This document shows positions 11,194-15,996 of a DNA stretch of 34,157 bases, one piece after another. This DNA comes from Polaribacter sp. (GTDB taxonomy: Bacteria > Bacteroidota > Bacteroidia > Flavobacteriales > Flavobacteriaceae): the NCBI GenBank assembly GCA_020631275.1, contig JAHDHO010000008.1, forward strand, positions 1 to 34,157. Direction: 5' to 3'. Both the position numbers and the translations under genes were made by a program. The first letter of the stretch is position 1. Every line of letters starts with the position of its first letter. The notes beneath the pieces were generated by a model. It saw only the letters and a list, made by a program, of their open reading frames with translations. It ran no database searches and was not told where the DNA came from.

Positions 11194-11400
11194 TTAATCT
11201 TCTACATACTCTAAAATATCTGAAGGTTGGCATTCTAAAGCTTTGCAGATAGCTTCTAATGTAGAAAAACGAACTGCTTTAGCTTTACCTGATTTTAAGA
11301 TAGATAAATTAGCAGTAGTAATGCCAATAATTTCTGCCAACTCTTTACTTCGCATTTTGCGTTTGGCAAGCATTACATCTAAGTTTACAATAATTGCCAT
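11194..11400 (-). CDS. Small Cro/C1-type HTH regulator (YozG-like)
   Basis: 68 aa: RSKELAEIIGITTANLSILKSGKAKAVRFSTLEAICKALECQPSDILEYVED. Confidence 0.9.
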   Translation of the reverse strand: MAIIVNLDVMLAKRKMRSKELAEIIGITTANLSILKSGKAKAVRFSTLEAICKALECQPSDILEYVED

Positions 11401-11402
11401 GT

Positions 11403-12329
11403 TTATATTGTTAGGTCGTTTTCTTGCTGAATCTGATTAGCTTTAGAAAGTAAATCGCTAAAGACAAATAAGCCTAAGGAAACAATAATTAATGTAAAAT
11501 CAAATTCATAATGAGGTGATATGCTTAAAAACACATCACTTTGTACTGTATTTTTAAAACTTGCATGATCATAATAGAAACTAAATAAGAAACTAAAAAC
11601 CAACTGAAGGACTTGCCAAATAATGATTAAACTTGCAATTTTGTTGATAGTTTTGACCAATTCTAAACTAAATTTGAGCGATGTTTTCAACAGCTGAAAA
11701 AGCGTTTTTAAATAGTAAAGTATAAGAATTATGATTATAAACGATAAATAGAATTTTAGATTAAAAAGAGTAGATAATTGCCAGTTTTTTGTCTCAATTT
11801 TTAAATTTGTTTTTCCTGAAATGCTGGAGACTTTTGTTGATACGTTTTCATTGTAATCTCCATCAAATTGTATTTTTTTTCCAAAAAATTCTAAATCTTT
11901 AGAGTTTTCAAAAATACTGTCTAATTTTTCTTTTGTAAACTTACTTTTTCCAAAAAAATCAGGATTTACAAAATTTAGCCTATCATCAGAATATCGACTA
12001 AAAACCTGAGTATCTATAGTGTTACCTAAACTGTCTTTTATGTAATTCGTAAACCTTTTACCTTGATTAAAAGATAAACTAAAATTTACAGGAATTTCCT
12101 TATTTGAAATATTGATAGTGGAATTTTTTGAAGTTTTTAAAATTCCGTTTCCTGTATAAAGAGTAAATGCTAAGGCTACAAAGGAGATTACAATCATTAT
12201 CCAAAATCCAAAATTAAAAAGAAGATATAAAAATGTAGTAATTCTTTTTTTCTGAAATGTACTGTAGATTAAGAACCCTACAATAGAAAATATTACTATT
12301 AATACAGTTGTTTGAAATATAGTTAACAT
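11403..12329 (-). CDS. DUF2975-like membrane protein with long non-membrane insertion
   Basis: Hydrophobic helices at both ends; C-terminal LSKANQIQQENDLTI as in neighbours; adjacent to YozG-like HTH. Confidence 0.75.
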   Translation of the reverse strand: MLTIFQTTVLIVIFSIVGFLIYSTFQKKRITTFLYLLFNFGFWIMIVISFVALAFTLYTGNGILKTSKNSTINISNKEIPVNFSLSFNQGKRFTNYIKDSLGNTIDTQVFSRYSDDRLNFVNPDFFGKSKFTKEKLDSIFENSKDLEFFGKKIQFDGDYNENVSTKVSSISGKTNLKIETKNWQLSTLFNLKFYLSFIIIILILYYLKTLFQLLKTSLKFSLELVKTINKIASLIIIWQVLQLVFSFLFSFYYDHASFKNTVQSDVFLSISPHYEFDFTLIIVSLGLFVFSDLLSKANQIQQENDLTI

Positions 12330-12331
12330 AA

Positions 12332-12832
12332 TTATATAGTTAGGTCGTTTTCTTGTTTTACTTCTCTTGCTTTTTCTAATATTTTACTGAAAATGTAGAA
12401 GAAAAAACCCATAATCATAGAAAAATATAGGATAAATATAAAGTCAGTACTCATCTTTAAGCTGGCAAACTTACCATCAAAAATATCTACAAAAATGGTT
12501 AAACTACCGACTGCTGCGGCGCGTAAAAAGTAAAAACCTGTTTTTTTAAATAGCAATATTTTTTCGATTGAAAAGATATCTTCAATGTCTTTAAAATTTA
12601 GAGTTTTTATCAAATTGTAAAAACCTATAAAAAATAATATACTGGCTATAAATTTGATACCAAATTTTATCCAAATAGCACTAGAACTTGCGTTATTAAT
12701 TACCATACCTAAATAACTGAAATCGTTTTCCATAAAAGCAAATAATGCTTTAATTGGATATAGAAAAAGAATAAATGTAAAAACGAATGAAAAGGTTTTA
12801 ATTCCTTTTTTTAAGTCTTGTATGTCTTTCAT
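12332..12832 (-). CDS. DUF2975-like membrane protein
   Basis: Four predicted hydrophobic segments; C-terminal ILEKAREVKQENDLTI. Confidence 0.8.
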   Translation of the reverse strand: MKDIQDLKKGIKTFSFVFTFILFLYPIKALFAFMENDFSYLGMVINNASSSAIWIKFGIKFIASILFFIGFYNLIKTLNFKDIEDIFSIEKILLFKKTGFYFLRAAAVGSLTIFVDIFDGKFASLKMSTDFIFILYFSMIMGFFFYIFSKILEKAREVKQENDLTI

Positions 12833-12835
12833 AAA

Positions 12836-13339
12836 CTATATTGTTAAATCGTTTTCTTGTTTTGTGTTTTTGGCAATTTTAAAAATTTCACTTAGCGTTA
12901 AAAAGAACAATCCTAAACAAATAATTACCAAGTGTTGATTTAAACCAAATTCTAAAGAAACTTTATGGTCAAAGTAAATTTTGCTTGTAAAAGATATTAA
13001 GAGAGAAATAATACCAGAAATAGCTAATAAATTTCCAGTTTTTTTGAAGTATATAATAACAGTTTCTTCAAAAATTTTTACTCTTATAAAAAGGTGTAAT
13101 ACTTTTCTAAAGAAATATAACGCAGTAATAATCAATAAATAATTTAAAGCAGAAACTGAAAGTAATATTTTTGATAATAAAGTATCGTTAGTAAAATTTA
13201 TTGAATTCATTTTGATGTTTAAATCGCCTAAATCAACAAAGAAAACAGCTATTGAAATACCAATTATAATTATTACAATGGGCATAGAAAAAATCCAAAG
13301 TAAATCTACAATTGCTTTTAGAACATTAAGTTTTTTCAT
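12836..13339 (-). CDS. DUF2975-like membrane protein
   Basis: Four predicted hydrophobic segments; C-terminal IFKIAKNTKQENDLTI; start at 13339 (MKKLNVLK) preferred since TATATTTG box (13363-13370) lies upstream. Confidence 0.8.
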   Translation of the reverse strand: MKKLNVLKAIVDLLWIFSMPIVIIIIGISIAVFFVDLGDLNIKMNSINFTNDTLLSKILLSVSALNYLLIITALYFFRKVLHLFIRVKIFEETVIIYFKKTGNLLAISGIISLLISFTSKIYFDHKVSLEFGLNQHLVIICLGLFFLTLSEIFKIAKNTKQENDLTI

Positions 13340-13362
13340 TATTTCATATATTTTTGATAGTC

Positions 13363-13370
13363 CAAATATA
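13363..13370 (-). promoter_or_regulatory. -7 box TATATTTG for the DUF2975/HTH operon
   Basis: Match to TAnnTTTG about 23 nt upstream of the first ATG. Confidence 0.4.
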
Positions 13371-13490: not shown

Positions 13491-14192
13491 TTAATCTCTA
13501 GACATAAATATTTGTAAAACGTACCAAAAAAGCAACATTAAAGAAGCAAATAAACCTAAAGAAGCAGGTATATAATCTTCTGTACCAAATTTGTTAACCA
13601 AATTAGATGTTTGGTATAAGATAGATCCGCCAGCTAAAACACACATTCCAACAGAAAACCATAAACCTAAATTAAAACCGAATAAAGAGCCTGCAACAAT
13701 TAAACCTAAAGCTATAAAAAAGCCAATTGTTAAACCTGTTTTAAGAAAAGAAAAGTCTTTTTTAGTTAAAAAAACAACCGCAGAAATACCCGCAAATAAA
13801 GCTAAAGTAACTAAAGCTGCTTGTTGTATTAAATCTTCACTTTCTGTGTAGTAAATGGCAATTGCTAATAACGGCACAAAAATGATTGCTTGTGCAAAAA
13901 CATACAAAGCATACGCCATGTATTGTATATTTTTATCGGCAGTTTTTAAAACTGTACTTTCTGCATAATTTGTAATCAGCATAAAACCACCTAACATAAT
14001 TAACCAACGCCAACCTTGTGTCATAGACATCATAAAGGTTACAATTGCATCGCTTTGTAATAATAAATATTCAAATAAAACAAATAAAAGTACGCCACCA
14101 GCAACGTGTGCATATGTTTTTTTGTAGAATTCTACTCGATCTAAATCGGTAGCATTAATTAGCATCGTTTTGTTTTCAAACGTATTTTCCAT
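13491..14192 (-). CDS. Bax inhibitor-1/YccA family membrane protein
   Basis: Seven-TM pattern; FYKKTYAHVAGGVLLFVLFEYLLL, ILYQTSNLVNKFGTEDYIPASLGLFASLMLLFWYVLQIFM. Confidence 0.9.
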   Translation of the reverse strand: MENTFENKTMLINATDLDRVEFYKKTYAHVAGGVLLFVLFEYLLLQSDAIVTFMMSMTQGWRWLIMLGGFMLITNYAESTVLKTADKNIQYMAYALYVFAQAIIFVPLLAIAIYYTESEDLIQQAALVTLALFAGISAVVFLTKKDFSFLKTGLTIGFFIALGLIVAGSLFGFNLGLWFSVGMCVLAGGSILYQTSNLVNKFGTEDYIPASLGLFASLMLLFWYVLQIFMSRD

Positions 14193-14259: not shown

Positions 14260-14694
14260 TTATACTTTCTTTATAACATTGGTTACAATTCCCCATATAA
14301 CAAAATCGTTATCTTCTGTAATGTTTATAATTGGGTAATTAGGGTTTTCTGGTTGTAGCCAAACTTCGTTTTTTTCTACACGAAGCCTTTTTACAGTAAA
14401 CTCGCCATCTAAAAAGCAGACCGCAATTTTATTGTTAGCAGGTTCTAAACTTCTATCAATTACCAATAAATCGTTGTCGTCTAAACCAGCATCAATCATA
14501 GATTGCCCTTTTACTTTGGCAAAAAAAGTAGCGTCTTTGTTTTGTATTAGTTCATCATCTAAAGAAATTCTAGTTTCTCTAAAGTCGTCTGCAGGCGAAG
14601 GAAAACCGGCAGAAATGCCAACATCAACCAAAACAGCTCCGTCTCCAGAAGAAGCCTTTGGCGTAAAAAAAGTAAGATTTTTAGATGTTGTCAT
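14260..14694 (-). CDS. umuD: UmuD-like LexA-family autoprotease, Pol V subunit
   Basis: Autocleavage-like region ISAGFPSPADDF, catalytic Ser KGQSMIDAGL and Lys GEFTVKRL; ATG at 14694 preferred over TTG at 14706. Confidence 0.9.
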   Translation of the reverse strand: MTTSKNLTFFTPKASSGDGAVLVDVGISAGFPSPADDFRETRISLDDELIQNKDATFFAKVKGQSMIDAGLDDNDLLVIDRSLEPANNKIAVCFLDGEFTVKRLRVEKNEVWLQPENPNYPIINITEDNDFVIWGIVTNVIKKV

Positions 14695-14736
14695 AATACT
14701 TTGCAAATTAAAACATTTCTTTAAATTTTAAAGAGT

Positions 14737-15996
14737 TTATTTTACAATTAAAACTTCGTTAATATTTGTGGTAAATTTTTTAGACAATCGGTTTTGTTTC
14801 ATTTTCCAGGTTCTGTTTAAATCTTGATTGCCAAGTTTAATTTTATCACTTTTAAATTTCTTATTTAAATTGTCTATTGCAGACATTAAAGGTTTGTGTT
14901 TTGGGTTTTCATGGCTAAATAAATTTAGCTGAAAATTGTCGTTAGGTACCAAGCCAGAGATAATTACACCTGCTTTTTTATAATTAACACCCTTTTGAAA
15001 AATCGTTTTTACGGCGGCTATTGCTGCGGATGAAATAGTTAACGTTGAATCTGTTGGGTAGGATAAAAAAACTGTTTTGTTTTCTTTTAAATAAGTTTGA
15101 TTTTTATCGAAACGATTGCTTCTAAGAAACACAGTTATTACATGGCAATTCGATTTTTGATCGCGTAATTTTTTTGCGCAACTCGACGCAAAAGTAGAAA
15201 TACGTTCGGTAATATTTTCTAGATCTGCATACGTATTTTCGAAACTTCTTGTGGTAGCAATCATTTTTTTAGAAGAAACAGCATCTTCTAACGGTATTTT
15301 AGAAATGCCTTGTAAATCTTTTTGCAAACGCCATTCTACAATAGAAAAATTTTTTAAAACCCAATCGCTTGGTAGTTGTGTAAAATCGTATGCAGTTTCA
15401 CAACCTTTTGCTTGTAGGCGTTTTTTTAACCGACTTCCAATTCCCCAAACATTGCCAATTTTAGTCCATTTTAGAGCTTTAATTCTATTCTCTTCAGAAT
15501 CTATTATACAAATGCCTTTTGATTGTTTTAAGTTAGAACGCGCAATTTTATTGGCAACTTTACTAAGTGCTTTTGTTGGTGCAATACCAACGCATGTTGG
15601 TATTCCTGTCCATTTTAAAATTTTACTGCGCATTTTGGTTGCGTAGTTAGACAAGTCATAATTTTCGAAACCTTTTAATTCTAAAAAAGATTCATCTATA
15701 GAATAGACTTCTATATCTGGAGAAAAACCCGCTAAAATATTCATAACTCGAGTACTCATGTCTCCGTATAACGGATAATTAGAAGACAAAACGGTAATAT
15801 TGTTGCTTTTACAAAATTGTTCCCATTTAAAAATTGGCGCACCAAAAGGTAGTTGTAATTTCTTGGCTTCGTCGCTCATAGAAATAACACAACCATCATT
15901 ATTGCTTAAAATAGCAACTGGTTTTCCTTGTAAATTTGGGTTAAAAACGCGTTCACAAGAAGCATAAAAATTATTACAATCTATTAGCGCAAACAT
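14737..15996 (-). CDS. umuC: Y-family DNA polymerase V catalytic subunit
   Basis: MFALIDCNNFYASCERVFNPNLQGKPVAILSNNDGCVISMSDEAK, VYSIDESFLEL, GIPTCVGIAPTKALSKVANKIA. Confidence 0.95.
   Translation of the reverse strand: MFALIDCNNFYASCERVFNPNLQGKPVAILSNNDGCVISMSDEAKKLQLPFGAPIFKWEQFCKSNNITVLSSNYPLYGDMSTRVMNILAGFSPDIEVYSIDESFLELKGFENYDLSNYATKMRSKILKWTGIPTCVGIAPTKALSKVANKIARSNLKQSKGICIIDSEENRIKALKWTKIGNVWGIGSRLKKRLQAKGCETAYDFTQLPSDWVLKNFSIVEWRLQKDLQGISKIPLEDAVSSKKMIATTRSFENTYADLENITERISTFASSCAKKLRDQKSNCHVITVFLRSNRFDKNQTYLKENKTVFLSYPTDSTLTISSAAIAAVKTIFQKGVNYKKAGVIISGLVPNDNFQLNLFSHENPKHKPLMSAIDNLNKKFKSDKIKLGNQDLNRTWKMKQNRLSKKFTTNINEVLIVK

Follow-up and report, generated by a model that had tools for sequence, protein, structure and literature searches.

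The question raised by this locus is why three neighbouring DUF2975 proteins, encoded in tandem on the reverse strand of the 34,157-nt stretch of Polaribacter DNA analysed herein (the window), all end in the identical peptide QENDLTI. To our knowledge, no function is known for DUF2975, a common family whose members were found here in several phyla next to YozG-type regulators. The initial annotation had traced the shared ending to 23-bp repeats, and both the coordinates and the reading frame ends were confirmed. The copies at 11404-11426, 12333-12355 and 12837-12859 are the sole matches within the window at three mismatches or fewer (shuffled sequences average 0.01), and on the reverse strand each comprises the QENDLTI codons and the first bases of the stop codon of one of three consecutive ORFs. 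The genes run in the order C, B, A, with the HTH gene last, and are separated from the next start by 3, 2 and 2 bp, respectively (Table 1). Pfam matches for the operon proteins are limited to DUF2975 and HTH_26/HTH_3/HTH_19. The DUF2975 proteins score 36.7–39 bits against PF11188 (gathering cut-off 27), with alignments reaching the profile end (130/130). As all three matches cover the final profile position, the QENDLTI-type tail is, at the level of sequence, part of the Pfam family itself. No further DUF2975 above the Pfam cut-off is present elsewhere in this draft Bacteroidota genome, and neither DUF2975 nor the HTH finds a match in two more genomes of the same genus, such that the distribution is patchy. 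The window also harbours a Bax1-I family gene (13491-14192) and, beyond it, ORFs resembling a UmuD/UmuC-type pair (14260-15996).

Table 1. Features of the DUF2975–HTH operon (window coordinates)
Feature	Position	Strand	Details
Predicted operator dyad TTATTG-TTTTT-CAATAA	13377..13393	.	Within the promoter of this operon
Predicted -7 promoter box TATATTTG (TAnnTTTG)	13363..13370	-	6 bp past the dyad
DUF2975 gene C	12836..13342	-	168 aa, ATG at 13342; PF11188 E 4.3e-9; 4 predicted TM helices, tail cytosolic by hydropathy and K/R loops
Gene C QENDLTI tail codons	12839..12859	-	
DUF2975 gene B	12332..12832	-	166 aa; PF11188 E 9.3e-10
Gene B QENDLTI tail codons	12335..12355	-	
DUF2975 gene A	11403..12329	-	308 aa; PF11188 E 4.8e-9, residues 191-308; extra TM helix
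Gene A QENDLTI tail codons	11406..11426	-	
YozG-type HTH_26 regulator	11194..11400	-	68 aa, DNA-binding domain only; PF13443 E 1.8e-25
HTH residues I34, A40, A42, S46	in 11194..11400 gene	-	Predicted tail contacts; covariation and AlphaFold

The remainder of the three proteins had been described as poorly conserved. Their bodies are indeed divergent, but homology is detectable beyond the tail, with, for example, 28 % identity across 144 aa (E 2e-9). Hydropathy and K/R counts for all three are compatible with a cytosolic C-terminus; the third TM helix of gene B scores under the hydropathy cut-off, its four-helix layout being borrowed from the family model. The TM layout of gene A predicts an extracytoplasmic loop of 138 aa, which may possibly serve as a sensor part.

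With regard to the spread of the tail beyond this operon, the Pfam model contains the tail and would render any search with it circular; for this reason, sampling was performed blind to it. One sample consists of DUF2975 ORFs found with an HMM from which the 14 C-terminal residues had been omitted, and the other of loci gathered in named genomes by HTH search alone. Both place [ED]-x-x-L-T-[IV]-COOH on nearly all DUF2975 proteins beside a YozG-type HTH, in Bacteroidota and Bacillota alike, with Proteobacteria displaying variants such as ENxxFV. With the C-terminal residue counted as -1, as in the covariation analysis below, 241 of the 243 tails paired with a YozG-type HTH terminate in I, V or L, and approximately 98 % have E or D at -6. 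The family-wide (E/Q)xDLT(I/V) endings that the initial annotation had mentioned for other DUF2975 proteins are therefore real. Similarly, the YoaS-type DUF2975 of Bacillus mojavensis, upstream of a YozG-type HTH, has the C-terminus QEAIDIKSENDLTV. At one further locus (L187:1975-2475), a second, upstream DUF2975 copy ends in KSEND, short of LT[IV], adjoining an intact tailed copy; from its sequence, the upstream copy is possibly decaying.

The presence of the tail follows that of the regulator. It is lost in seven of nine DUF2975 proteins without a nearby HTH gene vs 3/266 with one, although these losses represent approximately three separate events in the tree, such that a simple 2x2 test overstates their independence. 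Exceptions exist in the form of two HTH-less proteins (L037 and L059) with near-canonical tails. In L152:334-3213, three DUF2975 genes keep the tail even though a 364-codon gene, the product of which resembles a serine beta-lactamase-type hydrolase, intervenes before the HTH. YozG-type HTH genes without an adjoining DUF2975 also occur (L178, L195, L221, L317 and L321); in the first three of these the HTH directly follows a flotillin-like (SPFH) gene that bears no such tail. At L165:2445-2990 and L223:375-884, the protein preceding the YozG-type HTH ends in IESSLII or IESSLTI, is not a DUF2975 by Pfam, and combines a soluble domain with two predicted TM helices. These sequences suggest that the tail can be carried by membrane proteins unrelated to DUF2975, and as the two partners are homologous, they account for one acquisition; a search of 346 genomes for homologues in other Bacteroidota returned three weak matches. 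Viral contigs in IMG/VR also carry DUF2975–HTH pairs, as do many plasmids, including those of Klebsiella, Streptomyces, Priestia and others (L227-L236 and L336-L359).

The two partners also vary together, residue by residue. From 680 HTH-by-tail couplings, the four strongest link A42 and S46 to tail position -2 (z 9.6 and 8.0), and I34 and A40 to position -3 (z 5.9 and 5.3). The coupling of A42 to -2 ranks first under every thinning, whilst the order of the other three shifts. Threonine at -2 is accompanied by Ala42 in 191/193 pairs and phenylalanine or tyrosine by Gly42 in 26/26. Isoleucine occurs with Gly42 in eight of ten pairs and with Ala42 in the other two; valine and leucine are found with Ala42. 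One exception to the covariation rule is L315, which retains I34 and A40 with the tail ETDATV. The -2/42 pattern was first noticed among Bacteroidota, Bacillota and a small number of Proteobacteria, and was then checked on 22 pairs carried by plasmids of Proteobacteria, Actinomycetes, Bacilli and Clostridia. The rule is followed in 14/14, mostly from other phyla (F/Y/I with G42 in 8/8, T with A42 in 6/6). Independent contrasts, on a tree from which the trait columns were excluded, give approximately five changes in the same direction, none opposite and two unchanged (P = 0.06, with few independent events), and cross-position controls are weaker. Some genomes, for example G350 (L144 and L335) and G205 (L146 and L142), contain two systems of different class, and each system is internally matched. 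As both HTH classes share the same operator dyad, the changes at 42 and 46 do not track DNA specificity, and covariation as a mere by-product of that specificity is disfavoured.

Structure prediction places the tail against residues 43-44 of the regulator. The AlphaFold2 input was natural DNA in which the two genes lie in frame, with the TAA stop of the DUF2975 gene translated as Gly, and 65 paired rows. In a run with the tail and HTH of L163, tail residue -1 is predicted as a strand residue with HTH 43 as its only free partner, and in a full-length run for L025, tail residues -2/-1 match HTH 43-44. Both runs used tail-bearing constructs, with pairing deduced from DSSP by elimination. The short linker joining the proteins forces their proximity and removes the free carboxylate, and AlphaFold draws on the same covariation. 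A gapless HMMER alignment of weak score equates HTH residues 34, 40, 42 and 44 with Q33, T39, R41 and R43 of the 434 repressor. In the 434 repressor–operator complex this stretch contacts DNA, and the same surface meets DNA in Cro/CI-type proteins. By this homology the docking site would overlap the DNA-contact stretch, so that tail and DNA should compete. No close solved structure of the HTH was found, the only one being VanUg (3tyr) at low identity. Taken together, covariation, co-loss and structure prediction strongly favour the earlier suggestion that the tail is a short linear motif recognized by the HTH; as a reading of sequences and models, such recognition is well supported.

The site from which the HTH would act is predicted in the operon's own promoter. 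Of 223 related operons, 199 have TTATTG-N5-CAATAA, allowing up to two mismatches, upstream of their first DUF2975 gene vs 16 when shuffled. An exact TAnnTTTG follows the dyad by 6–8 bp in 70/144 Bacteroidota operons, and the position of the dyad relative to this -7 box appears repressor-like. The copy in the window is the only exact one in the 2.7-Mb genome, where approximately one would be expected by chance according to a control pattern. In 25 relatives, the exact sites whose spacer is entirely A/T occur at 17 places beside DUF2975–HTH operons and at three elsewhere (counted by eye). A wider regulon was considered and rejected, since exact sites elsewhere are about as common as a backward control pattern; judged by its sites, the regulon looks self-contained.

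We consider it probable, from these sequences and models, that the products of this operon form a repressor switch tethered to the membrane. The HTH, a 68-aa repressor with a DNA-binding domain only, would bind TTATTG-N5-CAATAA in its own promoter and repress its own operon. The DUF2975 proteins, with 4–5 TM helices, would present a free, acidic, cytosolic tail (E-N-D-L-T-I-COOH) as the recognition peptide. This may lie along the loop between helices 3 and 4 of the HTH, placing -2 next to 42/46 and -3 next to 34/40. Docked on the DNA-binding face, the tail would sequester the HTH at the membrane, away from its operator, derepressing the operon, and a signal from outside or from within the membrane would alter tail availability. 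Direct binding in cells, exclusion from DNA, the anti-repressive sign and any signal are what we infer; derepression in particular is a prediction by homology to the 434 repressor. A broader proposition, to which we assign even chances, is that control of DNA-binding-only HTH proteins by membrane proteins, via a free C-terminal peptide in the DNA-contact loop, is a widespread architecture. The tail–HTH code (-2 with 42, -3 with 34/40) may then keep apart paralogous systems that share an operator, and unrelated membrane proteins may also be able to carry the peptide.

Other explanations differ from this switch in how much of the evidence they accommodate. The closest retains the contact but reverses its consequence, in that the tail would bind the HTH as a positive co-factor, through recruitment to the membrane or co-repression, and would not take it off DNA. 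Covariation, co-loss and docking bear on recognition and not on sign, and are thus equally at home here; it is the overlap of the predicted site with the DNA-contact loop, together with the acidic nature of the tail, that renders this reading unlikely. A toxin–antitoxin-like module, with DUF2975 as membrane toxin, the HTH as autoregulating antitoxin and the tail as their point of contact, seems improbable. DUF2975 has no known toxic domain, orphan copies persist without an HTH, and two to four DUF2975 genes can be stacked within an operon, which is difficult to reconcile with the idea, even though the module is small and occurs on plasmids and viral contigs, and YoaS-like proteins beside Xre genes surfaced in a toxin–antitoxin screen (Makarova et al. 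2009; PMC2701414).

Two further possibilities had been raised in the initial annotation. An acidic stretch followed by a hydrophobic C-terminus would be compatible with protease recognition, such that the tail might be a degron or a tag for membrane-protein quality control. Neither role predicts residue-specific covariation with HTH positions 34, 40, 42 and 46, nor is the loss of the tail in the absence of the HTH explained, and we regard both as very doubtful. Least credible is a function for the DNA repeat itself, in translational coupling, or its being a simple relic of recent gene conversion. Near-identical 23-mers do stand at three junctions, the tails in the window are identical at 4–6 of 7 codons (vs approximately half expected), and within-operon codon identity is 68 % vs 49 % expected. 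Against this, the threonine codons at -2 are close to even across genomes (ACG 68, ACA 63, ACC 56 and ACT 51). The conservation of synonymous sites among orthologues, for which a check had been suggested, was not borne out; these sites are saturated, placing selection on the protein rather than on the DNA. Coupling is further contradicted by junction gaps that vary from -4 to >200 bp, and by the L152 tails, which are kept away from the HTH junction. Gene conversion as the sole cause is ruled out by retention of the same peptide in far relatives, across phyla. The near-identity of the repeats is, as read from the sequences, the product of a shared peptide, codon bias and common descent.

The proposed membrane-tethered switch can be set against several described systems. 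YoaS–YozG has the same two families (PF11188 and PF13443) in the same order. In the window, gene A lies directly upstream of the HTH_26 gene with a 2-bp gap; here, however, a single HTH is common to three DUF2975 genes in tandem. Linkage of YoaS-like proteins to Xre regulators was noted in 2009, listed with number 32, and the proteins were called likely permeases (PMC2701414); that account includes neither tail motif nor operator. No paper on the mechanism of the pair was found in a search mostly outside the subscription literature. What is proposed herein for DUF2975, namely a function, a single-residue contact code and an operator, is testable in its entirety in Bacillus subtilis yoaS-yozG.

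In functional terms, the proposed switch would resemble SdpI/SdpR of B. subtilis, where a polytopic membrane protein derepresses its own operon by capturing a small autorepressor at the membrane (PMC1626106). The gene order is reversed in that system, and the window proteins, which match PF11188 and HTH_26-like families only, include neither an ArsR-family autorepressor nor an SdpI-family protein. A similar functional likeness extends to the LytTR regulatory systems HdrRM and BrsRM, two-gene, autoregulated pairings of membrane protein and DNA-binding regulator that operate without a phosphorelay (PMC6193735). In these, the LytTR gene comes first, with a DUF3021/DUF2154 partner, and direct repeats lie upstream of the -35; in the window, an Xre-type HTH comes last, with a DUF2975 partner, and an inverted dyad is located inside the promoter. 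Pfam finds neither a LytTR-family regulator nor DUF3021/DUF2154 in the operon proteins.

A further parallel is CylR1/CylR2 of Enterococcus faecalis, in which a DNA-binding-only HTH of approximately 66 aa is accompanied by a membrane protein that is co-transcribed with it and required for induction; signalling from CylR1 to CylR2 is described as not being understood (PMC3709268). CylR2 (1utx/2xiu) is among the best fold matches of the window HTH, itself a stand-alone protein of this fold (TM 0.83–0.85 on the CylR2 chains). CylR1 differs in having three predicted TM helices, and the cyl regulators are divergent from a lantibiotic operon, whereas the regulon in the window looks to be confined to itself. 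The DUF2975–HTH pair thus provides a concrete model for the CylR1/CylR2 question, i.e. how a small membrane protein may signal to an HTH that lacks a sensor domain.
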